Positions 3,101 through 49,793 of a DNA stretch of 64,000 nucleotides are shown piece after piece; position 1 is the stretch's first letter; every line of letters begins with the position of its first letter. The notes beneath the pieces are model-generated. The model had not been told where the DNA came from and did not search any database. It saw only the letters and a program-made list of their open reading frames with translations. The stretch covers positions 14,202 through 78,201 of the forward strand of contig BCKL01000014.1 in the NCBI GenBank assembly GCA_001600635.1. The letters are read 5' to 3'. A program made the position numbers and the translations under genes. The DNA comes from Leucosporidium creatinivorum (lineage: Eukaryota > Basidiomycota > Microbotryomycetes > Leucosporidiales > Leucosporidiaceae).

Positions 3101-3239
3101 AACGCCGAGGCGGGAACCGTCAACGACCCCGACATCCCTCGTGGCTCGTTCCAGGAGGAGGGCTCGGACGATTCGCAAGATCCTCTCGAGATGACGGGCT
3201 TCCTCGCCGCCCTCAACAGCGCCTTCACCGGCTCGTAGA
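116..3239 (+). mobile_element. Ty1/copia-type LTR retrotransposon remnant (gag-protease-integrase part)
   Basis: This is a copia-class fossil. Parts are visible in the order expected for Ty1/copia. A UBN2-like gag region lies at about 130-720. A CCHC-type zinc knuckle (CPCGKWHW...DCPHP) lies near 777-825. An aspartic protease with an ILDCGASANM core lies near 1060-1090. A GAG-pre-integrase HHCC region (about 1455-1620) and an integrase core follow to about 2350. A low-complexity Ser-rich linker runs to 2620 and resumes at 2949-3239. Between 2625 and 2948 an LTR-like block interrupts the linker, so another element inserted here. The remnant is broken, with several interruptions, and lacks its own 5' LTR and reverse transcriptase in place. 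Ambiguous bases occur in the window only inside this element. Age is probably moderate, because the domains are still easy to read. Confidence 0.85.
2625..2948 (-). mobile_element. LTR-like block inserted in the copia remnant
   Basis: The block interrupts the integrase-RT linker of the surrounding copia remnant. Its right edge shares the 16-mer AGCATCCTGCTCAACA with the end of the LTR at 7664-8158. Its middle, near 2680-2760, matches the reverse complement of the LTR-like block at 8881-8960, sharing a GACTTAAGTCC-type motif. It is therefore read as an LTR, or most of one, on the minus strand. The left boundary is not resolved. Confidence 0.55.
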
Positions 3240-3600
3240 GAATGGCAACTGGTAACGGTAGAGCGCCGGTACTCGGAGAAGTAACGGTAGATTTCACATT
3301 TTTGAGGTAACTGTAACGGTAACGGTAACGGTCTACCGGTACCGGTAGCAGCAGTTCGGTACTCGTAGAGCCTCACCGGTAACTGTTGCCGAGTGGGGAA
3401 TGAGAGCTTGGAAGCCCTTCCTGTAGTGCTACAGCTTCGAAAGCTCGCGAGTAGTCTTTTACAGCAGTCTATTTGGCTACAACACCATGATATACTCTCC
3501 AGCACCTCTCGTTCACATCTCTGCCGAGCATTTTTCGAGATTTCAAGTAGCGGTAGCGGTACCGGTACTTGGAGTTGACATTCTCTACCGGCTCGGCTCA
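3240..3600. repeat. GGTAAC / TACCGGTA-rich repetitive stretch
   Basis: An imperfect run of GGTAAC and GGTAGC hexamers, with palindromic TACCGGTA blocks, covers about 3245-3375 and reappears near 3550-3575. No open frame or domain is seen. It directly follows the end of the copia remnant's reading frame and precedes an LTR-like block. It could be a decayed repeat element or a hairpin-rich spacer. Confidence 0.5.
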
Positions 3601-4020
3601 GGACGAATTCGCGCTCTCGACCGAGACTGCTTCAGACTAGCTCCTTACAGACATGCTACAACTACTCAAACTCACCTGAGGTCGACTGCTTCAGACTAGC
3701 TGAAGAGAGACCCAGGTGAGCGCCCGGCCTTGGGTCTTAACCCCCAAAGACTCGCCTCCCTCACTTCCACCAAATCACTCCATACTCCTCCTAGATGATA
3801 CCCAGTGGGAGTAAACCCTCTTGAGCGAGTACCTGGCCAAGAGGGACAAGCGAAAGTCGAGGAGAGAGGGCCGACACTTGAAGGCGCGCCGAAGAGGAAT
3901 CGAACCGATGGGAGATGAACTCGAGGTAGACGTCCTGATGGTGTACATGATTAGGTAGACGATGAGGTAGATGATGATGATGAACTCGTGGTAGAACTCG
4001 TGGTAGATGCTGATCATGAG
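3601..4020 (-). mobile_element. LTR-like remnant, minus strand
   Basis: On the minus strand this block shares organisation with the other LTRs of the cluster. It has a run of CATCATCATCTACCTC-type sequence, a GTTAAGACCC motif, a TCTCTCTTCAG block, and then an 18-nt direct repeat at 3684-3701 and 3625-3642. A CAG|GTGAGT sequence stands between the copies, near the first one in element orientation. It adjoins the minus-strand gag remnant and is probably that element's other LTR or one of a close relative. Its ends are not sharply defined. Confidence 0.5.
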
Positions 4021-4740
4021 GTACTAGTTGGCCGTCTGGAGAGAGGTTGCGAAGGAGGACGGCCGAGTAGATGGTCTCGACGGTAATCTTGCAGCTCTCC
4101 AGCAAGCGAGTGAGGGCGATGAAGGTGCGGTGGAAGGTGTCGAACTGCTCGGGAGTGGGAGGATCCAACTCGAAAATGTCGAGGAGGATGTTGGATGCGT
4201 CTTTGCCGAGATGCGCCCTGCGAAGAGCATCCCAGACTTCGGCGAGCGTCGAGGCGGTGGCGGAGACATGGATGTTGGGTCCGGAGTGATGGACGCGACA
4301 ACGTGGTTGCAGCAGAAGTCCTGGCAAGACCTCCAGTCCCCCCAGTCCTGGTTGGAGCGGTTGCTGGGCGCAGGAGCGGTCGACAAGTTGAAGAGGTCGC
4401 CTTTGGCTGCGATGACGTGCAGGTGAAGGTGCATGGTGTGAGACCAGGTGCTCCACTGCGCTGGACCCGCGAGACGGTTGTCTCCCTGCAGCGGCTTGAG
4501 CAAAGAGGGAGGCTTCCAGTCCGGGATACTGCTTTCCGTCCTCGTGACGTTGCTGGGGCCCGCCTCAGGCTTCTTGTCTGGGTTGTCTCCCATGGCTGTA
4601 GGGTAGTAGGGAGCGTAGGCAAGTGCTGTAGGCTGGTAGGAAGCAAGGCGAGGCTTTGCAAGAGCTTGTGAAGCTGAGGTCACGCAAGAGAGCTGGTGGC
4701 GTCTTGTTGTGGCGCAGCAGTCGGTAGGCGAGTTGTAGGC
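3791..4740 (-). mobile_element. Copia-type gag remnant, minus strand
   Basis: This is a fossil gag region on the minus strand. It reads from a leader and an ATG near 4683 down to about 4024, with residual similarity reaching 3791. The recognisable gag_pre/UBN2-like stretch includes PTPEQFDTFHRTFIALTRLL at about 4085-4165 and a WDALRRAHLGKDAS segment near 4190-4235. It lies directly downstream (in its own orientation) of the LTR at about 4741-5256. Protease and pol are absent. It is broken, with a few interruptions and a large 3' loss. The element sits inside the integrase fragment of another copia remnant, so it is the younger of the two insertions. Confidence 0.7.
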
Positions 4741-5256
4741 TCAGAACCTGTCGCTCTCCTCAGTTCTAGCGAAGCTCTAATACATAACAGTGATACATGA
4801 CTACTCACCTGTTGCTCTCCTCAGTTCTAGCGAAGCTGAAGAAGAGAGACAGTCCCTGCTCAGCGCGCGTCTGACTTGACCGCGCCTGAGTGGATAGGTG
4901 TCCACCTCCACCTCACTCCCTGCAACGTGGAGTTGCATACTCCAATCCTTAAAGACCGTTCCCTCCTATCACTACTCTCCCTGAGCTCCCACACGAGGAG
5001 CGAGTCCCTTGAGACTCGAGCCGAGCCGCCTAAGTCCGAGCCAGCGGAGGAAAGGCTAGGGAGAGGTGATGGAGGACAAAGCTGTCGAGGTAGTCGAGGT
5101 AGAGGCGATGGTAGATGCTGTAGTAGACGATACCGAGGACGAATGATGATGATGATGACCGACTTGAGCGAGGAGGATGCTGAGACGAGTGCGAAGCGAG
5201 TGATAGGCGAAGGGGAGTTGCGCTCAAGTAGGTAGGAGGATTAGAGGGTCTTAACA
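4741..5256 (-). mobile_element. Probable 5' LTR of the minus-strand copia remnant
   Basis: Read on the minus strand, this block starts with TGTTAAG at 5256 and runs about 510 bp to the leader of the gag remnant. That length and start are close to the 495-bp LTR at 7664-8158. It carries the characteristic internal direct repeat: 24 nt at 4814-4837 and 4753-4776, with GTGAGT following the first copy. The exact 3' edge, near 4735-4745, is uncertain. Confidence 0.6.
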
Positions 5257-6070
5257 GCTCTCCCTTCGAGTACGTCTACAAAAGAAACCCTCCTTCTCGC
5301 CTCGTCAAAAGGGGCAACCCCGCTGACTTGGCACCTTCGCCTTTCCCACCAATCTGCGAACGTCCTGCAGAAGCTGAGCGCCTCCTCCTCTGTTAAGGGG
5401 TTGGATGTACTGCCTGCTACGCCTGCTAGTGACTCGGATGCAATGACGTGCGGTATCTGCTTCATGAGCAAAGCGACTCGCCTTCCGTTCCCTGCAAACG
5501 CGAAGCGAGCTTCGGCGCCCCTCGAGCAAGTCCACTCCGACCTCGTCAACATGGGCGACCGCACCTTCGGCAACAAGCGCTCCTTCATCACCTTCGTCGA
5601 CAACTACTCCCGCTTCGTCGTCATTGGTCTACTCGCCAACAAGTTGGACGCCTTAGACGCTTTCCGCGTCTTTGACAAACGCGCGGAGAAGCAGCTCAGC
5701 ACTAAGCTCAAGCGCTTCCGCTCCGACAATGGAGGAGAGTACATCGACAAGCGCTTCACCGACTACTTCGAGGAGCACGGCATCCCCCACGAGACCTCGG
5801 TCCCCTACTCGCCTCAGTCGAAGGGCTGAGCGCAGAACTCGCCTCAGTCGAAGGGCTGAGCGCAGAGGATAAACTGCACTCTCGTTGACGCGACCAACAC
5901 CAACCTCGCTCAAGCAGGACTCGGACCCAAGTACTGGGGGGGAGGCGCTCCTCGATGCTTCCAACCCGACACCTACAACCGAGTCCCACACCAAGGCATC
6001 AACGACAAGATCCCCCTCTTCCTCTGGAGCGGCACGATTGTCAATGTCTCGCATCTTTGCGCCTTCAGAG
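5257..6070 (+). mobile_element. Copia-type integrase remnant
   Basis: This fossil fragment holds a copia integrase. A CGICFMSKATRLPFP-type end of the GAG-pre-integrase/zinc region lies near 5447-5490. A retroviral-integrase core follows, with VHSDLVNMG, FVDNYSRF and RSDNGGEY motifs at about 5530-5740, and the C-terminal part of integrase after that. A 30-bp unit ACTCGCCTCAGTCGAAGGGC... is tandemly duplicated near 5807-5866. The sequence differs from the integrase at 1640-2350, so it is a second family or lineage. It is broken, with several interruptions. The minus-strand element at 3.6-5.26 kb inserted just upstream. Confidence 0.75.
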
Positions 6071-6205
6071 CATCACTTTTCCCCCCACGCTATTATTGAC
6101 ACTTCACGCGCTTCGGCGCCTCGCTTCTCCGGTTCCCCTTTTGTTCAGATTCTTTTCTGATAGACTACATAAGCCTTGGTAGCTTGCAGGTCTTTAAATG
6201 AGATA

Positions 6206-6227
6206 TCTTCATTCATTCATTCATTCA
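6206..6227. repeat. (ATTC)n microsatellite
   Basis: About five copies of ATTC stand directly in front of the reverse-transcriptase remnant, at a junction between two retroelement pieces. Confidence 0.8.
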
Positions 6228-7663
6228 TGGCCAAGACGGGAGAGACCTTCCGCGACGAGACCGCCTTCCTTCGACCAGCCAACGAACCACGGAGCATCAA
6301 GGCTGCCCTCAAGACGGAGCACGCCGACGATTGGAGAGCAGGACTCGTCTCGGAGGTCAACAACCTCGTTCACAAGTACGAGGTCATGTCCCACATTGCC
6401 CGCAGGAAGCTACCTCGCGGCGCGCGTCTTCTCCCCTCCAAGGCCATCTTCAAGACGAAGCGAGACGCCGAGGGCTCACCGAGTTCGCATCGTAGCAATG
6501 GGCAACCTTCAAGGGGAGGACGACTACACCGAGACCTACTCCCCGACGCTCAAGTTCCCCTCGTTCCGCACCATGTTTGCCCTTGCCGCCGAGCACGACC
6601 TCCTCCTCGAGACCTGCAGCGTCACCAAGAATTGGCCTCTACGTCGACAACACGGCACATCTCGCTCGGGAGCAGAAGGAGCTCAAGAAGCAGAAGGCAG
6701 CCCTCAAGAATGCGTACGAGATCAAGGAGAATGGCGCTCCAACATGCCACCTCGGCGTCCAGACAAAGCGTCTCGCTGACGGGTCTTACCACCTCAACCA
6801 GCCGGGGTACATCAACAACATGATTAAGACCTTCCTCCCCGACGAACCTCAACGCGCCGTCTACACCCCCATGGCCGCCGATGCTCTCTCCAAACTCCCT
6901 TCGGCCGACCCCGACGCCTCGCCGACCGCGACGCCTCGCCGACCCCGACGCCTCGCCGAGCGACAAGCATCGCTTCCGCTCCCTCGTCGGCTCGCTTGCC
7001 TACTGCTCGACAGCCACTCGTCCCGACATCACCTACACCGTCTCCAAGATTGCGCAGTACAGCTTGGGACCTTGCAGGGCACACTTTGAGGCGGCGCTGA
7101 GGATCCTTTGCTACCTCAGGACGACCCACGAGCACGGCCTCCTCTACAAGTCGACCAGCGTCCCGCTACACGGCTACACCAATTTGGCCTACGGCAACAA
7201 TATTGACGACGGGCATTCGACTTTGGGATACGTCTTCATTGCCGCGGGCGCCGCCGTCTCATGGTCCTTCAAGAGACAACGTCAAGCAGTACATTTGACG
7301 ACCAAGGCCGAGTACATCGCGCAGTCCAAGGCGACCCACGGGGCCATCTTCCTCGGACAGCTCCTCATGGAACTTGGGCTCGGCGCCGAGCAGCCCATCA
7401 AGGTCTTCGGCAACAACACCTTGGCCATTGAGATCGCCAAGAACCCCAAGCACCACAAAAAGATCAAGCAGGCCCGCCTCAACCAGCATGGCATCTCCGA
7501 AGCTGTCAAGCTCGGCCTCATCGACATCTCGTATGTGCGCACCGAGGACATGACCGCCGAAATCTCACGAAGCCTCTCGCTCGCTCCGCCTTCAAAGGAC
7601 ATCGGGATCGCATGGGCGTTGTCCCCCCCCCCCCCCCCCCCCCCCCCTGGGAGTGAGGGGGGG
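6227..7663 (+). mobile_element. Copia-type reverse transcriptase / RNase H remnant
   Basis: This is the fossil 3' half of a copia pol. The reverse-transcriptase start (EPRSIKAALKTEHADDW) lies near 6280-6345. Later RT and connection parts include YVDNTAHL, THLGV-like and RPDITYTVSKIAQY segments. RNase H runs from about 7150 to 7560, with LTTKAEYIAQSKAT near 7296-7337. A G-rich polypurine tract (7652-7663) follows and abuts the LTR at 7664, exactly where minus-to-plus priming is expected. It is broken, with several interruptions and an internal loss. A GACGCC-type 30-bp tandem duplication lies near 6900-6965. Confidence 0.85.
7623..7647 (+). repeat. Poly-C tract (25 nt)
   Basis: A run of 25 consecutive C residues lies immediately upstream of the polypurine tract of the copia remnant. 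Its length may be unreliable in the assembly. Confidence 0.85.
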
Positions 7664-8158
7664 TGTTGAGAGGAGGAGGACTTAGCCATCGCTGAGCCAA
7701 CTCCGTCACCTTGCGCTGGCCGCCGAGAACGTCTCCAAGCTTCTTCCTGTTCATCATCTACCTCACCGTCATCACAAGCACCTCATCTACCTCTACCAAT
7801 CTATCCGAGGCACTGGAGGCCCTTCCTTTCCCTTCGCTTCGGCTCACTCCCCTTCGGCTCCCTTCGCCTCTCTCCATCAAGTCGACCTTCCTCCTCTCTC
7901 TCACCGCTCTGGACAACTGGAATCAACCTACACAGTGTGTACCACTCCCAAGGGGAGGGACACTTGAGGAGGAGAAGTGAACCCTGTCCGGGGAGGACTT
8001 AGGAGCTGAGGAGCACCTGCGGCTCTTGACCTCAGCCTTGTCTGAGTGTCTTTGCGCCCCAGGTGAGTGGTTGAGTAGGGTGTACAGCGTTGCATTAAAG
8101 CCTTGTCTGAGTGTCTTTGCGCCCCAGTACACCTCTGTACAAAGCATCCTGCTCAACA
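7664..8158 (+). mobile_element. 3' LTR of the copia remnant
   Basis: The block begins TGTTGAG right after the polypurine tract and ends CTCAACA, giving TG...CA with a 7-bp terminal inverted repeat and a length of 495 bp. It contains a perfect 28-nt direct repeat (8035-8062 and 8100-8127). The first copy ends in CCCCAG followed by GTGAGT, and the second ends in CCCCAG followed by TACACC. No matching full-length 5' LTR was found upstream in the window, so divergence-based dating is not possible here. Confidence 0.8.
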
Positions 8159-8899: not shown

Positions 8900-9063
8900 G
8901 ACCCCTATTGGGACTTAGGCGGAGTGGGACTTAAGTCCCAGGGGATGGGTGCTCCCCAGGTTGTCCTCAGCTCAGTCTGAGGCTTCTCAACCTAGGTGAG
9001 TTTGTGTAGTGCAGTATGCAACTAGGAGGTCAGTCTGAGGCTTCTCAACCTAGTGTACATAGA
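8880..9063 (+). mobile_element. LTR-like fragment with internal direct repeat
   Basis: The fragment matches the reverse complement of 2680-2760 (TTTGGGA...GACCCCTATTGGGACTT and GACTTAAGTCC). It then carries a perfect 24-nt direct repeat, 8972-8995 and 9030-9053. The first copy is followed by GTGAGT and the second by TGTACA. It is the fourth LTR-type block here with this arrangement. Its edges are not resolved. Confidence 0.55.
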
Positions 9064-9540
9064 AATAGCAGCTTTGTGCACACCAAGTTCTTGTTCATGG
9101 AGGCAAGACACATTTTCCCAGGGCACGTCAAGCATTGTGCAGCTCATCTTCCTGGGCCCCCAAGCATCCAACCGGCTCAGAGGGGCCATCCTGTGAGCGT
9201 GTGCCTCACAGCGGTCAATAGCAGCTTTGTGCACACCAAGGTATTGTTTATTGAGGGTAGACACATCTCCACGTTGCACATCAAGCAGCCTGCAGCTCAT
9301 CATCCTGGGCCCCCAAGCATCCAACCAGTGTGGAGGGGCTGTCCCGCAATCGTGTGACTCACAGCAGTCAATAGCAGCTTTGTGCACACCAAGGTATCGT
9401 TTATTGAGGGTAGACACATCTCCCTGTTGCACATTAAGCACCCTGCAGTTCATCATCCTGGGCGCAAAGCCATCCAACCGGCGGGGAAGGGCTGTCCCGT
9501 GAGTCTGCAACTTGTAGTAGCCTCTAGCAGCTTCTTGCAC
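9022..9540 (-). CDS. Possible 51-residue-repeat protein (hypothetical)
   Basis: A 172-codon minus-strand frame runs through the three best-preserved 153-bp units. Each unit encodes a 51-residue repeat containing LGVHKAAI, then a Cys-containing stretch, WLDAWGPRMMSC, and LLDVQRGDVSTLNKQY. Repeats are similar but not identical at the protein level. Two Cys positions recur (SCRLL/NCRVL and IDCCE/IDRCE). The frame ends to the left at about 9022, inside the neighbouring LTR-like fragment, and upstream units on the right are no longer in the same open frame. The start codon is uncertain. I recognise no family. It could be a real repeat protein gene, a remnant of one, or a non-coding satellite whose unit happens to be a multiple of three. 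Confidence 0.3.
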   Translation of the reverse strand: MQEAARGYYKLQTHGTALPRRLDGFAPRMMNCRVLNVQQGDVSTLNKRYLGVHKAAIDCCESHDCGTAPPHWLDAWGPRMMSCRLLDVQRGDVSTLNKQYLGVHKAAIDRCEAHAHRMAPLSRLDAWGPRKMSCTMLDVPWENVSCLHEQELGVHKAAISMYTRLRSLRLTS

Positions 9541-9803
9541 ACCAAGGCGTGGCTGATCAAGTCTAGACAGATCACCTCACTGCAAATCAAAAGCAAGTCG
9601 CAGGTCATCATCCAGGGCGCACGGCCATTCAATCAGCTGGCGAGGGCTGTCCCTTAAGCTTGCAGCTTGTATTAGCCCCTGGCAGCTTCTTGCCCACCAA
9701 GACATGCGTGACAAAGTCTAGACACATCTACCCACGGCACATCAGGCCCATTGCAGGTCACGATACTGAGCCGTGGCATCCAACGGGGGGGAGGGGATTT
9801 GTG
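9065..9803. repeat. Tandem array of five 153-bp units
   Basis: Units start at about 9065, 9218, 9371, 9524 and 9679, each beginning ATAGCAGCTTTGTGCACACC or a decayed form. Spacing is exactly 153 bp three times and then about 155. The first three units are close to each other; the last two diverge more. The unit also contains the shared block CATCCTGGGC...CCATCCAACC. The spacing equals 51 codons. On the minus strand the first three units form one open frame (see the CDS at 9022-9540). Confidence 0.85.
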
Positions 9804-9889
9804 GACTTTATAGATGGTATAGTAGGTGATGGCCCCATCTTACATGCTAAGCTGGGATCAAGTGCAGCCAACACCTTATCTCTCTCTGA

Positions 9890-11207
9890 ATCCACCCTTG
9901 CCATCTTCTTCCAATGTGTCAGCTCCTTTGAGGACCAGCATGAGCTCGAACTCGAAGACCACGGTGGAATTGCATCTTGTCTAGGAGAACTGGCGGGCAA
10001 GCCTACAGACAGCTCCCTCCACATTCAACCTACCCAGAATCTGACAGAGACAGGACTTCCTCTGGGCAAGATCGACTCGCAGCCCGACAAGGAAGGCCGA
10101 CAGATTTCGTTTGCCGGCTCTGGCTTTGTGAGCAAAGGGTGGCATTCCGACGTCGCCTTTGAGCCCAAGCCAGCTCTCTACACTATCTTAAAGATGCACA
10201 CTCTATCTCGTACAGGTGGCGAGTAAGCCCGACCCTTCCCGTCGTCAAAGCCGAGCCCCGAGCTGATCCTCTTTCCTCTCTCTCAGCACCCTCTGGTCCT
10301 CCAACTACAAAGCCTACGACCGCCTCACTCCCGCTTACCGCGAGTTCCTTTCCGGCCTCACCGCCACTCACAACGCCTACCGCTTCCGCAAGCAATCCCG
10401 CGCCAACGGGTACAAGCTGCGCGAGGAGCCTCGAGGCTTGCCCGACAACGTCGGCGGGGAGTTCAAGGCCGTGCACCCTCTCATTTGCACCAACCCGGTA
10501 ACCGGTTTGCAGTCCATCTACGCCAATGTCACCTTCACGACCCGCATCAACAAACTCTCGTTCGACGAGTCTCGCTCGGTGCTCGACTATCTCTTCCGCC
10601 TGCAACACGAGAGCCACGATGCTCATGTCAAGTACCACTGGGGAAAACACAACCTTGTCATCTGGGACAACTCGACTGTCAACCAGCGAGCTTGACTTCT
10701 CTGAGCCTCTCTGAGCTCGGCGCTGACCTTCCTCGCCTTTGCAGCCTCGCTACTTTCGATTTCAAGGGTCCCAGGCAGGGTGACCGTGCCGTCGTCGTCG
10801 GAGACAGGCGTGTACATCTCAGCGCTCTTTTATCGCCTCGACCCCAGCTGACCTCCGCTCGTCCTGCAGTACTTCGACCCCAACGGCCTCTCGAGGCGCG
10901 ACTTTGTGGCTGCGAGCGAGGGTGACGAGGAGTAGATGCCAACTTTGGTCGAAAGAAATGTATATACATAGCGCTGTGAAGCTACGGCTCAAGCGACAAG
11001 AGAAGTCGAGCAAGCGTCAAAGTTCGGCGAGAAGGAGGTGCGCCGAGCATCGGGGCTGCCGCCACGCTCACCGAGCGCTGGCAGGCTCTGCAGGCGAGGG
11101 TCGTCAAGCCAACCTACTCAGAGCTAGCTTCACTTGCTGATGCTGTGGTGTCTTGCCAGCTGCAGGGCTGCTCGCCGGCCTCTCTTGCTCAGCGCTCGCT
11201 CGCTCTC
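9890..11207 (+). repeat. Segmental duplication, inverted copy of about 34967-36320
   Basis: From about 9890 the sequence matches the reverse complement of the TauD-like gene region. The match covers coding exons, introns and about 270 bp of 3' flank. Examples are GTATATACAT...GCTGTGAAGCTAC just past the stop codon, and the downstream CTGCAG-rich stretch. Introns are retained, so this is a DNA-level duplication and not a reverse-transcribed copy. The left edge abuts the 153-bp array; the right edge lies near 11207. Confidence 0.85.
9903..10935 (+). pseudogene. 5'-truncated copy of TauD/TfdA-family dioxygenase
   Basis: This copy encodes the same exons as the gene at 35232-36690. It retains FEDQHELE, GWHSDVAFEPKPALYT (with the HxD iron ligands), TLWSSNYKAYDRLTPAYREF, and the C-terminal YFDPNGLSRRDFV ending at a TAG at 10933-10935. 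The N-terminal exon and the first part of the large exon are missing: the match starts around 9890-9920 in unrelated sequence. The donor that is GTGAGT in the intact gene (after WDNSTVN) is GCGAGC here, near 10686, which should block normal splicing of that intron. The donor after GDRR reads GTACAT instead of GTAGGT. It is therefore most likely non-functional. Confidence 0.75.
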
Positions 11208-32445: not shown

Positions 32446-34837
32446 ATGCCCACCTCCTCCTCTGCTGGCGCTCCCAAACCCGCGTCAAAGAAGCCCTCTA
32501 AGCCGCCTCCTGCGCCTCCCACAACAACAAGGAGCGGCCGAACCGTCGTCAAACCGTCTTCAACCCTCAAAGCCGCTGCTACTTCCACCGCTCCCGCTGC
32601 ACGTGCACGCAAAGCTCCCGCTCCCGCTGCGCTTCCTGCTACCGCTGCTACCAAGCGCAAGGCTCCCGCTTCTCGCGCTCCTCCTCCAGCTCCTGGTACG
32701 TCCGCAGCGTACAATAACGTAAAGAGGACGGGAACGAGAGCTGACCGAGGCTCTCACAGCTGCATCCACTGCATCAAGCAAGCCCAAACCGACTCGGCTC
32801 GCGCCTCCCGCCACCAAGGTCGCTCCCGTCGCTTCTACCAGCAAGCTCGGAGTAGGAACGACCCAGAAGCAGAAGCAGTCGCAGCAGCAGCAGCAGCCAA
32901 TGCAGCAGAGCGCACACACGAGCCGCGCCAGATCTTCGCCGACCGAGGCAGGCGAGCTCGCTTCCCCTCAAGGCGCAGAGGGAGGGCTTGGAGTCACGTT
33001 AGTTATGGGAGCTCAAGTCGTGACAGTCGAGGTGAGTTGCTGAAGCATCCCCTGAAACGAAGCGATACCTAACGCCTTGCTTTACAATACAGCCGATGAT
33101 GTCGCCAAGGGTTCTCGTGCTCTACACCAAGCGCAAGCGCTGCCCGGACAAGGAATGCCGTCAGATGACTATCGTGGATATGGCAAACAACCACGGACAC
33201 GTTCAGGGCTGTCGCATGTTCAAGTGGAGTTGTAGCGTGCGTCGAGACCTTCTTCCCCCTTCACGTTTCCCGCTAACTCTCGTCAAATTGAGCAGACTGA
33301 GAATGTCGTACAGCCTCTCGATAGCGATGCTACTACAAGTAGTGGTGCCGAGAAGGTTGCAGCTACAGCTCAGACTCGTGAGTGGTTCGAGCGTCTCTTC
33401 AGCGCCGAGCTGTCGCTGACTCTCTCCTCCCACTTAGCCGCCGCCGAGGTCTCGCACGACCACGAGCAGCAAGAGCAAAAGGAGGAGCAGGAGGAGGCTG
33501 CGCTGATCGACCTCGCACCCATCGCTCCTGTTATCACTCCCGGTGAGTCGTTCGTTCCGCTCGCTTCGGATCAAAGTCGAGCCCTTCCTGATCTTGCTTC
33601 TACACAGTCGTTCCCTCGGCCTCCCTCGTCGAGCTGGCTGCTGGAGCACCTGCCTTCGACTTGCTGTTAGATGGTATGCTGCTCTTCGCGCCGCCGCGCG
33701 GATCGGCAGCTAGCTGCCTTCGGCTCTTCTCCCTCGCAGGCTCGCTCCCACCGACTACTGGTGAGCATCCAGCGTCCCTCGAAAGTGATTCATGACCTTA
33801 ATTCATCTACCGCTCGCTCGACAGGCTTCTCGTCCTCTGTCGCTGGATTTGGACCGCCGACGTCCGTTGCTTTCGCCCTCGCCGAGCCTGGCCTTCCTGG
33901 ACTTCTGGACGGTGAGTCGTTCTTTGTACTTCTGGGTGAGCTGCATTGTTGCTGACACCCCATTGCTTCCTTGCAGGCTCACTCCCTCCTTGCCTTAGTG
34001 AGTAATCCTTCCGCCACGACCGGTACTCGCGAGCTTTGCTCACCTGCTTCTCACTCGACAGGCGACTCCCTCGCCATCACTGGCTTTGGAGTTGCAACCT
34101 CGATTCCTTCGCCCGAGTCGGGTTTGCAACAGCTCATGGAAGGTACGCCCATCGTCAGATCGCCGCTCGAGCCCTCTCGGCGCCCGACTCTCGCTGACTG
34201 CCTTCTTCTCGCTGCAGGCTCGCTACCTCCTGTGACGGGTGAGCAGCGCCGCTCAGTCGGACGCATCTGTGTCTCTCGTGCGGCGTGCTGATCTTCGCTC
34301 CCCAGGCTCTGATGTCTTCAGTTCGTCCAACATCGCGATCGGACCTCAATTCGGCGCCGAACAGTCGTTCGAGTTCATGAAGGGTTAGTCACTGCTCTCG
34401 CTGCTCTGCGCTCAATCGACGAACCTCCAGTTACTCTTACTCTTTTGTTCCTCAGCCTCACTCCCGCCCACCTCAAGTGTGTGCAAGCCTGCTTGCGGTG
34501 CTTGGCCTTCAGCTGACCGCCTTCCTGCGCAGTGAGCAACCTCTATGGCCCTTCGACATCCGTCAACATCGGTGGACAGCAGTCTGATCAAGGACCACTT
34601 CCTGTTGGTGAGTTGCGATGCTGGCGCGCTCAAATTCTCCTGCCGAGTGATTCCCCCCCCGCTTCGCAGGTCCCTCGCATCGTGAGTTTTGCTTCATTCG
34701 CTCACAGTGGTTGACAAGAGCTGATCACCTTTTCAATTATTCTTGCAGATGGAGACAACATCGAAGGGCCAACGTCGGCCGACCTCGACGTGACCCCAAG
34801 GCCACCCGCTCGGCACTTCGGCGCGACTAATAGATGA
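32446..34837 (+). CDS. Exon-array gene with four 21-nt micro-exons (unknown function)
   Basis: A many-exon gene begins MPTSSSAGAPKPASKKPSKP, an Ala/Pro/Lys-rich low-complexity region, then a Gln run. A Cys/His cluster follows, RCPDKECRQ...NNHGHVQGCRMFKWSC, which could bind zinc. An acidic/Gln-rich part (DHEQQEQKEEQEEAALIDL) leads to the array. From 33740 on, 21-nt exons (33740-33760, 33977-33997, 34218-34238, 34456-34476), each encoding SLPP plus three residues, alternate with exons of 87, 81, 78 and 75 nt (33825-33911, 34062-34142, 34306-34383, 34533-34607). A 12-nt exon (34670-34681) and the last exon (34749-34837) end the gene. All array junctions are phase 1, so exon pairs can be skipped or duplicated without breaking frame. 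I recognise no family. A transcription-associated role is only a guess from the composition and Cys/His cluster. Confidence 0.7.
33740..34607 (+). repeat. Tandem exon-pair repeat (micro-exon + long exon, four units)
   Basis: Each unit is a 21-nt micro-exon, an intron, a longer exon and another intron. The micro-exon starts GCTCGCTCCC, GCTCACTCCC, GCTCGCTACC or CCTCACTCCC. Micro-exon starts are spaced 237, 241 and 238 nt. Long exons shrink by 6, 3 and 3 nt along the array and keep phase 1. Confidence 0.8.
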
Positions 34838-35231: not shown

Positions 35232-36320
35232 CTACTCCTCATCATTCTCGGTCGCAGCCACAAAGTCGCGCCTCGAAAGGCCGTTAGGGTCGAAGTACTG
35301 CAGAGGTGGAGAGGTTAGCCGTAGTCAAAGCGATGAGAAGGAAGTGCAACCTACAGGCCTGTCCCCGACGACGACGGCGCGGTCTCCCTGCCTGGGACCC
35401 TTGAAGTCGAAAGTAGCGAGGCTGCAAAAGCGAGGAAGGTCAGCGCCGAGCTCAGACTCGGAGAAGCTCAAGGAAGTCAGACTCACTGGTTGACAGTCGA
35501 GTTGTCCCAGATGGCGAGGTCGTGCTTTCCCCAGTGGTACTTGACATGGGCATCGTGGCTCTCGTGTTGCAGGCGGAAGAGGTAGTCGAGCACTGAGCGA
35601 GACTCGTCGAACGAGAGCTCGTTGATGCGAGTGGTGAAGGTGACGTTGGCGTAGATGGACTGCAGACCGGTGACGGGGTTGGTGCGAACGAGAGGGTGCA
35701 CGGCCTTGAACTCCCCGCCGACGTTGTCGGGCGAGCCTCGAGGCTCCTCGCGAAGCTTGAAGCCGTTGGCGCGCGATTGCTCGCGGAAGCGGTAGGCGTC
35801 GTGGGTGGCGGTGAGGCCGGAGAGGAACTCGCGGTAGGCGGGGGTAAGGCGATCGTAAGCTTCGTAGTTGGAGGACCAGAGGGTACTGAGAGAGAGGGAA
35901 GAGGATCAGCTCGGGGCTCGGCTTTAACGACGGGAAGGGTCGGGCTTACTCGCCACCGGTCTTAGGGAGCGTATGCATCTTCAAGATGGTGTAAAGTGCT
36001 GGCTTGGGCTCAAAGGCAATGTCTGAATGCCAGCCCTTCGAAGTGAAGCCAGTGTCGCCGAACGAGATCTGGCGACCCTCCTTGTCCGGCTGCGAGTCGA
36101 TCTTGCCAAGGGGAAGCCCCGTCTCCGTCAGATTTTGGGTAGGGTGGATGTGCAGGGAGCTGTCGGCAGGCTTGCCGGCCAGTTCTCCTAGGCGCAAAGC
36201 AATCCGACCGAGGTCTTCGGGTTCGAGTTCATGCTGGTCCTCGAAGAAGACGACCCCGTGGAAAGAGACGGCGATGGCGAGGTCACGAAGAACAGCATCC
36301 TTTTTCTCCTCGGGAAGCTT
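34967..36320 (-). repeat. Segmental duplication, source copy of 9890-11207
   Basis: This covers most of the intact TauD-like gene plus about 265 bp of its 3' flank. The copy at 9890-11207 is inverted relative to it and about 24 kb away. The copy here keeps a complete 5' part, consensus splice donors and open frame, so it is taken as the parent. Confidence 0.8.
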
Positions 36321-36690
36321 GATGATCTCGGCGAGCTTGACAGTAGGGCCGAACTTGAGTCCAAGGGCGGGAGTGAGTTGGGTGCGGCTGTGGACAGCGG
36401 AAGGAGCCGGGGAGGATGGTGCAGGGCCGTGTGATGATGTTGAGAGTTTGGCGGTGCAGTGTACGAGAAGATGTAGGTCGTCAGCTCTGCTCCGCATCAT
36501 CGAGTCGGCTCGGCGGAGGTCCAGGAGCAGCAGCTACTCACGGGTAGTCCTTCTCATTGAGGGCGCCAGAGGGAACCAAAGGCTGGACTTTCAGACCATC
36601 GTAAAGTGACGCGGGGGGAGTGGTATCCTTGCCCCGGAGCTGGAGCGAGCTGAGGCCGGAAGCGAGCTGAGTAGTCGAGGCGTTGACCAT
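35232..36690 (-). CDS. TauD/TfdA-family 2-oxoglutarate, Fe(II) dioxygenase
   Basis: Exons are 36542-36690, 35950-36387, 35487-35885, 35355-35421 and 35232-35297, all joining in frame. After a short N-terminus (MVNASTTQLASGLSSLQL) comes the double-stranded beta-helix fold of taurine dioxygenase: FHGVVFFEDQHEL, then SKGWHSDIAFEPKPALYTIL with the HxD iron ligands (His-Ser-Asp), and HDLAIWDNSTVNH where the distal His is completed across a splice junction. The C-terminus ends RRDFVAATENDEE. The family uses 2-oxoglutarate and O2 to hydroxylate sulfonates or related acids; fungal members are sometimes sulfonate or phenoxyacetate-type enzymes, so substrate is open. Expression could respond to sulfur supply (inference). 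A broken copy lies at 9903-10935. Confidence 0.88.
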
Positions 36691-37059
36691 GGCGTTGGGA
36701 GGAGCGGTGCAGGTAGTGTGATGAGTGCAAGAGTTGATTTCCGTCTGCGTGCTGTGACCCACCAAGGCGCGATTCAGCTCCCTGCTGAACAAGCCGGCGA
36801 TGGCGAGCGAAGTGCTTTCGATCAAAATGGCGCCAGGATAGGGAGGGGGTACAAGTAGAGTAGTGAGGTGCAGGCTGTGCTCCCGAATATCGAACCTCGA
36901 AGACAGTAGCAACCAAGAATCAGGTCGAGGCGAGAGGAAAGAAGCGAAAAGGAGCTGAGCTCGACTGCGGGGCCCATCTTGCTCGGCGATGAGAAGTCGA
37001 GTTCGGCGTCGAGAACTGAGATGCGGTGCTAAATGCCTTCCGTGCAGCTATAAGGTCGA
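36691..37059. other. Intergenic region, nothing recognised
   Basis: The upstream region of the TauD-like gene and the 3' flank of ELP1 lie here. A minus-strand frame extends upstream of the TauD ATG but looks like leader sequence. Confidence 0.4.
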
Positions 37060-40000
37060 CTACACATCCAACACGCCTATCCGCCACTTCTCCTTTGCCA
37101 ACTTTGGCCGCTCGACCTTCTCGGTCCCCTCCTCCGGCTTAGGCTTCTCGACCCACTCGCCTCGCTCCCTCTGCTGATGCTCCTCCTTCGCTTCCTCCGC
37201 CCACTCCTTCTCGCGCCAGCCCCAGAGCGAGTCCGAAGCGTCGCGGAGAAAGGTCTCGAGGTTGGTGAGCTCTTGCTGGAGGTTGGTCGCTGACGAGCGA
37301 TGAGATGAGGAGCCGAGGGTGAGGAGGATGGGGAGCAGAGCAGCGGTCTCGCCTGGGGACGGGAGGACTGTCAGCTATGGGACAGAAGACAGGGGAGAGG
37401 AACACTCACCCTGCAGCTCGCCGAGCCTGACCTCCAGCGACTTCTTGAGCGAGTTGAGAAGGTAGGTCTCCTCGTAGATGCTGCCCTTCTTTCCCGCAGC
37501 CTTCTTGAGACCTGCTCGTCGACGAGAGCGAGCGGTGCGGCTGTTGAGGAGGGAGTCAGCGTCGAGCCTTCCGAACTCAACCAAGCCGAACTCACGATGA
37601 CCTCTGACTCGTCGCGCGACTGGTAGCTTGCGTTGTAGGCGCAGCGGTGTAGCGAGTGAAGGCCGTTCCAGCATCGGAAGCGCCATCTGGCTGCAGCTCG
37701 ACATTGTCGATCGCGGAAGTCGGGTCGTCGAGGCAGAAGTATTGGTCTGCGGGGCGAAATGAGGGTCAGCCTAGCTGAATAAGAGCGGAGACAACATCAA
37801 AAACGTACAAGGGTTGGCATCACGCTTCTCCTTGAGCTCTTCTAAGCGCTCGACTTGCTTCTCGACCTGCTCGGTGAGCTCGTTGAAGTCGTCGACGAGG
37901 CGGGACTCGACCTCAAGGGTTCCAGGCTTGATGTGCGTCTCGATGAGGTCGCGGCGGTTGTAGAGCGATGTCTGTGAGGTGAGCCGGTTTAGCACAGCTT
38001 GCACGAGGCGGGAACGGCGCAACTCACAAGACGAAGAGCTTCGGCAAAGGCAGCTCCTTCGACGAGGGCGCCAACGGCTGCTTCGACGTCTCGACCGTAC
38101 TCGAGTAGCACACGACCGGCTTCAGCGAAGCGACGCTTGGCGCGGAGGTTGTCTGTGGAAGGCCAGACGCGATCAGCTCGGTGCTAAGCGAAACGAGGGA
38201 GAGGGTTAGCTCACCAGCAACGTCGACAGCGAGAGCCTTGATATCCGATGCAGTCCGCTTGCCCTCGGTCATGGCGAGGTTGAAGAGCTCCTGCCATGCG
38301 TTGGCCTTGGTGTAGGCGGCGATAGCTTCTGCCGGCTGACCTCCGAGAGCGAAAACTGGCAGGCGAGCAGGGTTAGCTGTGCAACGACTGCGCAAGAGAG
38401 GGCAGCACTCACGAAGACCAGCCTCAGTGTACTTCTTGTGGTCGACGAGGTACTCGGCGTTGGCGCAGAGGATGACCTGCAACAATTCGGCGAGTCAGCG
38501 AGCGCTCTCCAGCGCCGAGAGCTCCGTGCAAACGCACCTTATACTTGGTCGAATCCTCCTTGAACGCCTGCAGCGCGGTAGTGAAGAGGTCGTGCTCCTT
38601 GGTGTAAGCGAGTGCCTCCTCGAAGCGATCCGGGCCAGCGAGGGCAAGGTTGCGAAGCGCCGAGTCGTGTCGACCGAGATGATCGTCGATGCGATGGCGT
38701 TGGATGTGCGTGTCGAGTTGGCGGAGCTCGCGGAGGAAGGGCAGGTACTCGCGAGGATCCTGCATGAGAGAAGACATGAGCGAAGAGCTCGAGGACGACA
38801 AAGAACGAGACCAACCTTTTGCGAGTGCTGAGCGATCATCAGCACCAGCGGGAAGTCGTACATGCCCAACGCCAGGTCGAACAGCTTGTTGGCATCACTG
38901 AGGAAGATGATGTACTTGACGGCGTCCTCCGCCCTTGCCGCATCCTTGGCCTTGAGCTCGACGAGGACCTTGAGCGCCGACTCGTAATCCTGAGGCTGCT
39001 TTCGGACATGCGCGGTGAGGATCGTGTTGGCGTAGTGGAAGACGTCGCCCTTCTCCAGTTCGGCGCGGATGAGGTCGCAGACGAGGTTGATCTTGTTCGT
39101 CGTGTCGCTGCGAAGATTAGAGAGGTCAGCTCTAACTCGGCGAGCATCAGAGCATCAAACCTCGCTGTGACTCACGCAGGCTTGACATCCGAGGCGATCA
39201 GCGGTCGGTACATGGTAGCCGTGACATCCTCAACCTTGAGACCCGAGAGGAAGAGGTTAAGATGATCGACCTCCTTGACCTGGGCGACGAAATCGGCGAG
39301 GTTGGCCTGAAAGGCGGCGGGATCATGATCGTAGAGGATGTTGAGGTCGATACGGTGTCGTCGGCAGGCTAGGAAGGCGGCGCGGTAGCGTTTCCTGTTG
39401 ATGTCAAGCAGTCAGCACTCGTCGCCGAGCCGAAGAAGAACCCGACCGCCGAGACTGACCTATCGAGATCCTGCCTTACGATCCTCAGGACCAGAGGCCT
39501 AGGACAGATGATCTCCAAGTTGCCCCGCGGCATCTGCAGCACCAGCGTCGTCGAACTGGGCACCACCGTCACAATCTTACTCCCCCTCTCCACAGCCCTC
39601 TTGATCGCTCCTTGCTCCTCGCCCACCTTCTCCTTCCTCATCCCCTCCGTATGACTGACCATCGGCCCTCCCTCCGCACCCCTCTCCAAAGTGAACAAAG
39701 GCACAAACTTCGCTTCGTGCGAGAAGGTCGTGTAGATGAGGAAATCGGGCGTGGTGGTGAATGATGTGGCGTCCGAGGCGAGGAGGCGGGTGGAGGCGTA
39801 GAGGCGGCCTGAGTCTGCGAGACCGATTAGAAGGGGAGTGGTGACGAGGGAGAGGTGTTGGATTTGGGAGCAGAATTCGGGGAAGGGGGGGAGGAGGTCG
39901 GAGGGGAGGAGAGGGTCGTCCGAGGTTGAGGTGGTGGGGACTGTGGAAGAGCGAAACGATTAGCTTAGTCTCGGTTCAGGAAGAAGTAGATCAAACTCAC

Positions 40001-42230
40001 CCTCCAACACAGTCCCATTAGCACTCTCCAGCAGGAACCCGTCACTTCCCACCACCAACCTCCTCGCCCCTCCGGGCACTCTCAGAGCCTCCGTCTCTCC
40101 GTTCTTCCTCACCAGGACGACTTCACTCCCCCTCCTGGTCGAGCAAAGCACCGCCACCGTCACTCCCTCTCCCTCGCCGACCACAGCGCACTGCCTCGCA
40201 TACCTCGTTCCCTCCTCCTCTCCCTCGACTGCCACAGAAGCCGACCAAGACAACCTAGGGTTGACAACCTCATCCCTCATCTTCCCCTTGGCCTTCTCCA
40301 ACCTCAGTGGCCAGCTCCAAACTTCGAGGAAGCCGTCAGGGTAGAGGGCTACGAATGAGTCGGAGGTGGTGGAGAAGGAGATGTGGGAGGGAGTGAGAGA
40401 GGCGCGGGAGGAGGGGAGGGTCGTGGCAGCCATGGGAGGGGGGATGTTGATGAGGCGGAAGGGGGTTAGGCGGATGGAAGCTGTGAGGCAGGGGGAGGAG
40501 AGAGGGAGGGTCAGCGCTGGCGCGTGAGAGAGAGATGAAGTCGAGGTCCTCGCAGCGAGTGGAGACAGAAATGAGGCGTGAGAAATGAAGGCTCACCACC
40601 ATCCACGACCGCCACAGCTCCATCATCATTCGGTGGTGGCCTCGCCGAGACAAACGTGTCCCAAGCGAGGGTGAAGGATTCGATGCCGGCTGTTCAATAG
40701 ACATCATCAGTACTGCTTCACCTCCAAGATGAGGAAGCGAACGCACTAGTGGTAGTAAGGTGCAACTCGAGCGCCTTCTCGGGGTTCCAGAGGAGCGAGG
40801 TGATGGCGGCCTTGGCTCCAGAGAGACGAGGCGAGATCTCCTGCTTGAGTGTCCAGTTGTAGTTGTTGCGATGCCAGAGTTGGACTGTCGATTCGTCCGC
40901 GCGCCGTCAAAGGTCAGCCTCATCCACCCTCAGCCGCCGCCGAGCACGACCTCAACAACTCACCAGCATGCCTCGCTCCCTCCCGCTCAATCCACACAGC
41001 CAACAAACTCGAATCCGCATTCCACTGCAACTCCCTCACCCTCGCTGCCTCGCCCTCCCCTTCCTCCTCCCTCAGATCAAACTCATACCTCCTCAACCCA
41101 TTCCTCTCAAAGAAGACGACCTTCAACCCTGCCCCCGCTCCCTCGGTGTTGCGCTGAGTAGCCGCAATGATACTCCCACTCGGCTGCCACGCTAACGGGT
41201 GCTCCAACCCACCCGTCGGTTCCGAGGTACTGGACAACTCGGCCACACGAGAGAAGACCCTCACGACCCTCCTCCTCGTCGGTTCTCCTCCCTCACTGCT
41301 CGGCGCAAGCTGATCCAAACTCGACACCGCGAACCACGCCGAATCCCCCCTCCACGAGATCCTCGGTTGACCATCGTCCTCGGTCGAAGATTTGAGGGCG
41401 TCGAGGGAGGGAGTCGAAGGCGCCTGAGCAGCCGCCTTGCCCGCCGAGCCGTGGAATTGAGAGGACTTGGATCCCCAGCCTACATTCACTGGGGCGTCTG
41501 CTCCAAAGGAGGAGGAGCGCAGGGGCCCTTCGGAGAGGGGTTCGAAGTCTTTGGTCATGGAGAGGAGTTGGTCGTCGCCTGGTCCGAGTCGAAGGAGGGT
41601 CAGCGAGGGAGAAGGAGGGTAAGGAGAGGGGGAAGGCGCACCGGTGATGATAGCCAGTAGCTCCTCATCGGGACTCCATTCCGCCGCCTTGATCCCCAGA
41701 TCAAACGTCCCTACATTCTCCCTCTGCCATTCCAAGAACTCGGTCAGCTCGGCTCCCTCTCGGCGCAGAGAAACGAAACAAAGCCAGACCCACCGTAGCT
41801 TCCCCCGGTCCTGCAGGGTTGTACACGTGTTCAATATCCCCATTGGAGAGGACGAGACAGAGCGAGTCTGATTCGGGGAGGTACTTGAAGGAGATGACGG
41901 AGGAGGCTTCGGGGTTGGAGAAGGACGAGAGGGATTCGGTTGACCAGGAGAGGATGGGGGTGGGGGGCTGTTTGTCGGAGAGCTGTGCGTTAGCTCGGAG
42001 TAGCCGGGAGAGATGGCTGTAGGCGACTAGACAAGACTGACCTGATTCGCAGGATGAGCTCCGGGGAGGGAGAAAAGGCTGAGGAGGGCTGTACCGTCTT
42101 GTGAGGGGGTTTCTTGTACGAGGTATAGAGTATCTGTAGCTGGATCTGTAGTGACTGCTGTGACCCGAGCTGCCTTGTCTGCTGCTGGGATGGTAGTAGG
42201 CTGAGCGGCGAGGAGGACTAGAGATCTCAT
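37060..42230 (-). CDS. ELP1: Elongator complex subunit 1 (ELP1/IKI3)
   Basis: The scaffold of Elongator, which modifies wobble uridines (cm5U/mcm5U) of cytoplasmic tRNAs. The gene has many exons and codes for roughly 1,300 residues. The N-terminal half is a double beta-propeller region: KAAEWSPDEELLAIIT, GQPRISWRGDSAWFAVSSL, LEHPLAWQPSGSIIAATQ, VVFFERNGLRRYEFDLRE, and VRELQWNADSSLLAVW. The C-terminal half is helical repeats: RRHRIDLNILYDHDPAAFQ, RPLIASDVKP, YTKEHDLFTTALQAFKEDS, ILCANAEYLVDHKKYTEAG and NAWQELFNLAM. The end carries the family's basic segment RRRAGLKKAAGKKGSIYEET with YLLNSLKKSLE. Length and order match known ELP1. It is head-to-head with the NDUFB2-like gene (213 bp between start codons). 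Confidence 0.93.
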
Positions 42231-47516: not shown

Positions 47517-48228
47517 ATGCCTCGTTCTCCCATCCTCCTGCTACTCATGGCTCTCGCCGTTCTCGTCTCGACGATCATCGCCGAACCCCTCCCTAACGAC
47601 ATCGTTATGGTAGTCCCTGCCAACGGGACCCTCACCAACAGCAATGGAAATATCTCGACTTACTCTGTCGACTACACTGGACGCGCAGGAGACTACCTGA
47701 CCAACCTCGGCTTCAACCTCACCTACCCGAATCTCACTAGATCATTCGGCGGAGGGGTCAGTTCGGGAGGCTGCATCACGCGTGGGGGAGTGTACACGTT
47801 TGGCTTCAACAACTCGCAAGCCGGGGACTATGTGAGTGGCGTCGTTCGACCCGTACAGCTTCAAGGCTGACCCTGCCTCTCGGCGTTGTAAAAGCTGCTC
47901 GAGGCCGAGCTCTTGCTCGCTCCAAAGGTCGACGGGTCCTGTGGTGGTCCGGACCAGATCGAGACTTTCCGTTTCCCTTTCACGTAAGTACCGCACACTC
48001 GCAGCAGTCTCTCCGAAAGCTGACCCTCTTTGACTAACCAGCCTGGTCGCTGCCAATTCTCCCGGAGGACCTGAACTCGACCGCACGACGACCACCGCGA
48101 CTTGGGCTACAGCTCCTACCGGTACTTACACCCCTCGCGACCCGGTCAGTGGGGCCTCTCGCTCGGCGATAGGAGGAGCGGCGATGGCCCTCGGGCTCGG
48201 CACTTTGGTGATGTGGCTGTTGGCGTAG
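47517..48228 (+). CDS. Secreted GPI-type protein, tandem paralogue 1
   Basis: Exons 47517-47831, 47895-47983 and 48042-48228 give 196 residues. A signal peptide (SPILLLLMALAVLVSTIIAEP) is followed by a domain of about 90 residues with many N-glycosylation sites (NGTL, NISTY, NLTYP, NLTRS). The core SSGGCITRGGVYTFGFNNSQ is shared with the next gene. A Thr-rich stretch (DRTTTTATWATAPTGTYTP) and a hydrophobic tail (IGGAAMALGLGTLVMWLLA) resemble a GPI-attachment signal. The protein is thus expected at the cell surface or wall. Family name not recognised. The gene is a tandem duplicate of the one at 48590, with intron positions in the same places. Confidence 0.8.
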
Positions 48229-48589
48229 GTGGGCAGTAATTGTCGCTTGAGAGCATGTAGATAGTTCTTTTTTTCGACTAGCATGTACACACTTTGAACA
48301 GAAGAGTGGTTCTCGGACGCTGTTGCGCCGAGCGCCGAGGTCTCCAGTTTGCGAAACGAGCGCCGAGCTCAACTTGTCCGTCTTTCAAGATCCGACGGCG
48401 GCTGTGCGTTCGAGAAGGACGTCGGACAGGTCGGAAAATCATGTGCCGAGAAAGATATACAGTCCGTATCGCCCCCCCTACCGAGCCTAAAGCCGCTGCC
48501 TGGTAGGGCATCTCCGCGCTCCCGAACTTCTGGTTCAAAGCCAGCTTTTGCCAGCTTTACGGCTCTCTCTCCTACACTTCACTTCGACT
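48229..48589. other. Intergenic region between the tandem paralogues
   Basis: Terminator and promoter region between two co-directional paralogues; no gene seen. Confidence 0.35.
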
Positions 48590-49358
48590 ATGCCTTCCCT
48601 CACTCGCTCCCCCCTGCTGCTCCTGCTGCTCGCGGCCGCCTCAATCGCCCCTACAGTCATCGCCGAACCCCTCCCTTCCTCTATCGTCGTCTTCCACCCG
48701 TCCGATGGGATGGTGGCTAATAGCTCGGCCGATGCGGCCTCACATTACGGTGTGAACAGCACCGGATCCTCGGGATATTACTTGCAAAATGTCGCCTTCA
48801 CTCTCACCTCACCTAATGGCACAAAATCCTCCGGCGGAAGTGTCGAATCGGAAGGATGTCTGTTCAGAGGAGGAGTGTACACCTTTGGCTACGACAACTC
48901 GCAAGTGGGGGAATATGTGAGTGCTTCCTTGCCTTCTTCGCGTAGCCCCGCTAATCCCGTTTCTTTTTGAAGATCCTCGACGCCGAGGTTTCGGTCGCCG
49001 CTCAAGTTGAAGGAGGCAAGGAAAACGCTACTTGTCCAGGTCCGGAGGCATATCAGAAGAGTACCGTTTCTTTCAAGTGGAGGTGAGCCTCTTCCTCTGC
49101 TTCTCTTCACTTCAGCCCACAGCTCCTGACCCTCACTCTCTCTTTCGGCTCGGCGACAGCTCCATCGCTCCCAACCCCGACGGCACGACCACCTCCTGCG
49201 GTAACGGCTCAGCGGTCACCACTACCGCCAGCTTTGCTCAGGCTCCTACGGGGACGTACGCTCCTCTGAAGGGGAAGGAGAGCGGTGGACGCTCCCTTGC
49301 GCTGGGCGGAGGGCTGGCCCTCGTGATGGGAGGTTCGGCGATGGCGTTGTTGGCGTAG
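48590..49358 (+). CDS. Secreted GPI-type protein, tandem paralogue 2
   Basis: Exons 48590-48916, 48973-49082 and 49160-49358 give 211 residues. It has a signal peptide (PLLLLLLAAASIAPTVIAEP), then EPLPSSIVVFHPSDGMV, and the core ESEGCLFRGGVYTFGYDNSQ that matches paralogue 1. N-glycosylation sites are frequent (NSSAD, NSTGS, NGTKS, NATCP, NGSAV). Extra Cys residues appear in the second half (ATCPGP, TTSCGNGS), with the C-terminal hydrophobic tail LALGGGLALVMGGSAMALLA preceded by APTGTYAP as in paralogue 1. Gene structure is conserved (three exons, the same phases). A cell-wall or surface role is inferred. Confidence 0.8.
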
Positions 49359-49793
49359 AGGTGATGCAAGGCGGGCCTTGTGCAGCTTGACGAGAGCGGT
49401 GAGTACTCGAAGACGAGAGCAAGGCTTCCGAGCGAAGATGGTGGCCTGCAGAGCACCTGCGCAGACGACCCGCTCGAGGCCGACTCGCCGAAGCCTTCGT
49501 CCACCGCGCCTTCAAGCTCCCTGGAGTCCTCCAACCATGTGAGTGGGTCGCGGCACCGCTTATAGACTCTCTGCCTAGTCATACGCCAACCTGCGCCCTT
49601 CAGCTGCACCTCGGCGCTCGAATAAGGAAAGCGCAACGGCTCGCTCTACATTGCGAATCGCTCCAATCGAGGTGACAAACCAGGGGGGACGGGGTACTGA
49701 AAGGGAAGACGGTAGTGGTAGATATGCGGTGGGGTATCGATAGAGGTAGGTGGAGGCGGGTGAAAGGCGGAAGGGAGGTTTCGGCGGTCGGCC
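49359..49793. other. Convergent intergenic region, nothing recognised
   Basis: The 3' flanks of GPI paralogue 2 and SERF meet here; frames are short and featureless. Confidence 0.4.

Follow-up and report, generated by a model that had tools for sequence, protein, structure and literature searches.

A predicted tandem array of exon pairs with 21-nt micro-exons in a fungal-type gene

Pairs of a 21-nt micro-exon and a longer exon follow each other four times in a predicted gene of the 64-kb window (the whole stretch of DNA that was analysed), with phase-1 junctions throughout, units that are related to each other and selection on the SLPP residues encoded by the micro-exons. The array is probably the outcome of tandem duplication of a two-intron unit of about 240 bp, the copies being old, the SLPP residues under selection and all exons most likely constitutive, which gives a repeat protein. 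As a prediction from the DNA, the exon array is confirmed as real, and from the same DNA we infer that the predicted splice junctions are actually used in the cell. The features of the gene are as follows.

32446-34837, forward strand: whole predicted gene, 16 exons, 474 amino acids plus stop (strict run)
33093-33236, forward strand: exon 3, 48 amino acids, C-x4-C ... H-x-H (read from the translation)
33608-33673, forward strand: exon 6, 66 nt, VPSASLVELAAGAPAFDLLLDG, unproven candidate for what is left of a long exon upstream
33740-33760, forward strand: unit 1 micro-exon, 21 nt, SLPPTT (gene model)
33825-33911, forward strand: unit 1 long exon, 87 nt (gene model, joint shuffle tests)
33977-33997, forward strand: unit 2 micro-exon, 21 nt, SLPPCL (gene model)
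34062-34142, forward strand: unit 2 long exon, 81 nt, the one most clearly related to the unit 1 long exon
34218-34238, forward strand: unit 3 micro-exon, 21 nt, SLPPVT (gene model)
34306-34383, forward strand: unit 3 long exon, 78 nt (gene model, joint shuffle tests)
34456-34476, forward strand: unit 4 micro-exon, 21 nt, SLPPTS (gene model)
34533-34607, forward strand: unit 4 long exon, 75 nt (gene model, joint shuffle tests)
34670-34681, forward strand: 12-nt exon (PSH) without SLPP core, putative micro-exon remnant of unit 5 (gene model)
34749-34837, forward strand: putative terminal exon of unit 5 (89 nt, up to the stop), related to the unit 3 and unit 4 long exons

The prediction stems from a simple two-strand gene model that combines position-specific coding statistics with donor, acceptor, branch site and intron length. 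The 64-kb window served as the training set: the gene finder started from consensus sites of our own making and was then self-trained on its own predictions, after which the parameters were rebuilt minus the array gene; in this held-out version, the gene list and the choice of branch site come from the run that includes the array gene. The strict intron penalty of -6.5, which was also run on the whole window, was picked by us, the estimated penalty being -4.6, and the strict run ends the gene at a stop at 34837, the end point also of a model whose final exon was extended to the first in-frame stop. With held-out parameters, the exons of 33608-34681 are identical at three intron penalties (-4.6, -5.0, and -6.5), with lengths of 66, 21, 87, 21, 81, 21, 78, 21, 75, and 12 nt. 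The positions are those of the initial annotation, whose coordinates and lengths for the four micro-exons, the four long exons and the 12-nt exon are all reproduced. At the penalties of -4.6 and -5.0, exon 2 becomes two exons of 92 and 51 nt, and the 3' end becomes exons of 41 and 12 nt that reach up to 35185. Forbidding the acceptors of the short exons singly costs 4-13 nats in the held-out gene model, and forbidding all short-exon junctions together costs 47-55 nats.

The window has a GC content of about 59%, and its predicted introns are many and short; gene style and intron length point to a fungus, most likely a basidiomycete. Of 140 internal exons in the strict run, 23 have 30 nt or less; 18 of these belong to other genes, and many are probably spurious. 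Outside the array gene, the gene finder produces numerous tiny exons that are doubtful, including one of zero length in the looser first run. Shortness of exons in itself is not distinctive in the 64-kb window. Internal exons of exactly 21 nt were found four times in the strict run, each time in the array gene, and the looser first run added one more in the gene at 47517.

The micro-exons start 237, 241, and 238 nt apart, in agreement with the unit spacing of 237-241 nt that had been described for this DNA. Introns 4-15 are all predicted to be in phase 1, so that the earlier description of every array junction as phase 1 stands in the predicted model, while in other parts of the window 76 predicted reference introns are distributed over phases 0, 1, and 2 as 29, 23, and 24. 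Because the boundaries are all in phase 1 and each internal array exon is a multiple of three, any combination of exons keeps the frame, and units can be gained, lost or skipped without a frame change, as had been proposed.

The DNA pattern AGSCTCNCTNCCNCC, which covers SLPP together with the splice acceptor, occurs four times in the 64-kb window, always in the array, whereas 100 shuffles gave 0.08 occurrences on average and never more than 1, and a chance origin of the pattern is rejected. Micro-exon length (21 nt) and the SLPP core are the same in all four units, as claimed at the outset, whereas the two residues that follow vary (TT, CL, VT, and TS). When the four SLPP cores are compared in six pairs, 17 of 24 third codon positions differ, against none of the 48 first and second positions. 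Since the differences are confined to third positions, the cores are read as coding, the copies as old and the selection as acting on the protein; the selection on the micro-exon that the initial annotation had suspected is thus supported for the SLPP residues. A role of SLPP purely as an exonic splicing signal is rejected on the same count, because such a signal should hold third positions as well.

The long exons have diverged, as had been noted, though a joint similarity persists. For the unit 1 and unit 2 long exons, the similarity score of the proteins was reached by none of 500 shuffles, and of the 27 residues aligned 10 are identical, 7 of which are encoded by different codons. The differences between these two exons amount to 16, 6, and 16 of 27 at codon positions 1, 2, and 3, respectively; second positions are held and first positions are not, and because divergence at third positions does not exceed that at first positions, purifying selection is not clear from this pair alone. 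The joint similarity of the long exons of units 1-5 was reached by 0 of 2000 shuffles, that of units 1-4 by 1 of 2000, and it holds for units 1, 3, 4, and 5 with unit 2 left out (p = 0.0015) as well as for units 3, 4, and 5 (p = 0.0025, 2000 shuffles), in tests that preserve the amino-acid make-up and not the order along the exon. Among the single protein pairs of units 1-5, five of ten have p < 0.1 and five p > 0.1, and at the DNA level only the pair of units 1 and 2 has p < 0.05. A 32-nt match across the micro-exon and its junctions is shared by three units at 69-78% identity. The proposal that a genomic unit of about 240 nt with two exons was duplicated is borne out by the joint long-exon similarity and the regular spacing.

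At the 3' end, a fifth unit that has decayed and lacks SLPP is the best reading of the 12-nt exon together with the terminal exon, because the joint similarity includes unit 5; taken singly, the terminal exon resembles the unit 3 and unit 4 long exons with p = 0.014 and 0.038. At the other end, exon 6 is possibly an older copy of the long exon ("unit 0"), which is unproven: against units 1-5, in order, the p-values are 0.12, 0.70, 0.12, 0.68, and 0.51 for the protein and 0.40, 0.03, 0.38, 0.05, and 0.002 for the DNA, the latter among 15 DNA pairs tested.

These features suggest the following course of events. Tandem copying of a unit of about 240 bp, comprising two phase-1 introns, the 21-nt exon and an exon of 75-87 nt, would have enlarged the 3' half of a basidiomycete-type gene dense in introns, and the phase-1 boundaries at both ends of the unit would have left the frame intact with each copy. 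The copies appear to be old, synonymous positions of the micro-exons and most of the intron sequence having diverged, while selection on the protein would have retained the residues of SLPP as well as part of the long-exon sequence, and the fifth, terminal unit would have decayed. Splice sites would be paired across each intron of 56-75 nt (intron definition). Constitutive inclusion of all array exons is most likely, because introns of this length are recognisable one by one.

The 474-aa predicted protein has a basic N-terminus rich in Lys, Ala and Pro, followed by a Cys/His stretch, a linker rich in Glu and Gln, and the tail of repeats of about 30 amino acids each. The repeat tail is probably disordered, and SLPP with the preceding hydrophobic and acidic residues (then G-SLPP) may be a short linear motif for multivalent binding in a putative nuclear protein. 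Judging from its translation, exon 3 is possibly a small metal-binding module; a FLYWCH-like reading of it found no support in Pfam. Folding of exon 3 as a single sequence gave three strands at middling confidence, with a mean pLDDT of 74 for the best model and 52-74 over five models. Compared with PDB folds, the exon 3 model has no match at E <= 0.001 and 980 at E <= 10, the best with E = 0.16. Pfam yielded no family for the first 222 residues at E <= 1 or for the whole protein at E <= 10, and the only PDB match of the whole protein by sequence at E <= 10 has E = 5.6 and is not meaningful. In two collections that are not meant for fungi, 50 pattern matches of the whole protein (IMG/VR) and 65 of exon 3 only (GTDB genomes) included none that was confirmed, results with no bearing on relatives among fungi.

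Pfam searches with five protein pieces from 4 of the 23 other strict-run genes identified TauD (twice), ELP1, DOT1, and porphobilinogen deaminase. The window holds two copies of a TauD-type dioxygenase, at 9016-10935, where the protein matches the profile in part (81-226 of 267), and at about 35232-36700 (4-261); at 35232-42230, the gene finder seems to merge an Elp1 gene with the TauD gene. A 153-bp tandem repeat present in about four copies with 78-84% matches (9064-9744) overlaps the 5' part of the first dioxygenase gene. The frames at 116-7967, in which some bases are unread, resemble remains of an LTR retrotransposon (integrase-like, RNase H-like), and the protein predicted at 47517-49625, which is possibly secreted, has an internal duplication with two similar halves, for example GGVYTFGFNNSQ and GGVYTFGYDNSQ.

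Several other readings of the array have to be weighed against constitutive splicing of duplicated units. Regulated skipping of micro-exons or units, by which a family of proteins with varying numbers of SLPP modules would arise as in schistosome micro-exon genes, is unlikely in our judgement. Phase-1 boundaries and internal exons that are multiples of three would leave every combination in frame; however, symmetric phase comes with the duplication and calls for no regulation. Donor strength is uneven among the introns leading into the four micro-exons (percentiles of 0.13, 0.88, 0.34, and 0.31 among 101 reference introns, with 0.71 for the intron into the 12-nt exon), as skipping might lead one to expect, but the acceptors of the five short exons all lie above the middle (0.95, 0.66, 0.91, 0.73, and 0.95, in order) and give no hint of weak inclusion. 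According to the available part of a survey across eukaryotes, skipped exons tend to be short and intron definition is linked to short introns between long exons (PMC6142364), and because of these associations micro-exons of 21 nt or less are not a textbook case of constitutive inclusion. The same part of this source describes exon skipping as comparatively low in fungi and the introns around skipped exons as longer (PMC6142364), whereas those of the array have 56-75 nt, a point in favour of constitutive inclusion. In Cryptococcus, 10.6% of the genes have more than one transcript, with exon skipping among the causes listed in the accessible portion of the report (PMC3990503), which keeps skipping conceivable in the array gene. 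It is distinctly unlikely that a fungal gene evolved, without a connection to animals, frame-neutral cassettes of micro-exon and long exon that are included optionally and thereby adjust how many SLPP binding modules a putative nuclear protein carries; this would be combinatorial exon skipping in a lineage whose alternative splicing is more commonly intron retention. Isoform diversity from the array is not favoured, though the frame permits such isoforms.

A second reading assumes that introns 6 and 10 are often kept, giving longer in-frame exons in units 1 and 3, and that the pattern partly reflects splicing efficiency. Introns 4 (33378-33437), 6 (33674-33739), and 10 (34143-34217) are multiples of three and can be read through without an in-frame stop, the donor of intron 6 is weak (13th percentile), and retaining this intron costs only 4-6 nats in the gene model. 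Even so, this small margin favours splicing of intron 6, splicing with the acceptor of intron 10 beats the best path without this acceptor by 12-13 nats, and the acceptors of both introns are strong (0.95 and 0.91), so that frequent retention is rather improbable. Retention of introns 7-9 and 11-15 would break the frame, because read-through meets an in-frame stop in introns 7, 8, 9, 11, and 12 and because introns 13, 14, and 15 are not multiples of three.

Introner-like elements, which are defined by near-identical intron sequences, occur in fungi, and copies of one mobile intron could in principle have been inserted into an older, uninterrupted repeat protein. The similar intron lengths (56-75 nt) and regular positions would agree with such an origin, but the array introns are not near-identical. 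As sets, neither the A introns (from micro-exon to long exon, n = 4; p = 0.23) nor the B introns (into a micro-exon or the 12-nt exon, n = 5; p = 0.16) are significantly more alike than random sets from 63 unrelated reference introns of the window. Of the 16 like-with-like pairs (6 A and 10 B), only A1/A2 falls below 0.05 (about 0.01), and some non-corresponding pairs also reach 0.02-0.05. The interior similarity of the array introns is thus mostly lost, as would be expected if the duplications are old and not if a mobile intron had multiplied recently, and matching positions in every unit are more simply explained by copying of a unit together with its introns. Multiplication of an introner is very unlikely and is rejected.

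Finally, it is highly improbable that the micro-exons are no exons at all and that B intron, 21 nt and A intron form one intron of about 150-165 nt with intronic SLPP DNA or a decayed exon. A readable frame does remain when all micro-exons are skipped (66, 87, 81, 78, 75, and 89 nt at the strict penalty), but the restriction of SLPP-core variation to third positions is a mark of selected coding sequence and the gene model pays the 47-55 nats given above.

Tandem duplication of an exon pair, the preferred reading, has known counterparts. The protein repeats of collagen and of the PEVK region of titin arose from tandem exon duplication. Like the array gene, in which neighbouring exons share descent (joint shuffles, SLPP core, units 1 and 2) and the copied unit has symmetric phase (introns 4-15 in phase 1), these genes have symmetric-phase exons that were copied in tandem into repeated protein modules; unlike them, the array gene has an exon pair as its copied unit, one exon of only 21 nt, and is of fungal type. 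Tandemly repeated exons that encode 81-base repeats were reportedly described in S. mansoni by Davis et al. in 1988. Schistosome micro-exon genes resemble the array gene in their tandem exon copies and in having very short, symmetrical, frame-preserving exons in rows, whereas in the array gene micro-exons alternate with longer exons. The coding region of schistosome micro-exon genes lies mostly in very small symmetrical exons; in the array gene, the five exons that do not exceed 21 nt total 96 of 1425 coding bases (stop counted). The schistosome introns are long, ranging from 100 to almost 5000 bp in the available parts of two sources (PMC10526429, PMC4350168), whereas all 15 predicted introns of the array gene have 56-75 nt. 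The same parts describe secreted proteins with variants from alternative splicing (PMC10526429, PMC4350168), while such variants of the array gene are hypothetical.

Very short exons are also found in fungi. The Phanerochaete P450 genes have exons of 2-10 amino acids that are spread over many P450 genes (PMC1184071), and Trichoderma Xlr2 has a single micro-exon switch (PMC11121469), as far as the accessible portions of these reports go. In these portions, both resemble the array gene in exon size and, unlike it, are described without a tandem array (PMC1184071, PMC11121469); for Xlr2, switching is demonstrated in the part available (PMC11121469), whereas in the array gene it would be hypothetical. 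Among the matches listed, the open-access literature on micro-exons and tandem exons in fungi contained no tandem exon-pair array. Rather than a new kind of system, the array represents tandem exon duplication in a tidy variant. If the predicted splicing is true, it offers a clean fungal case of a protein repeat built from copied exon pairs, with a 21-nt exon in which residues are kept and silent positions have diverged, and a test bed for the splicing of very short exons amid short introns. If the units were optional, it would also be a test bed for combinatorial splicing outside animals.
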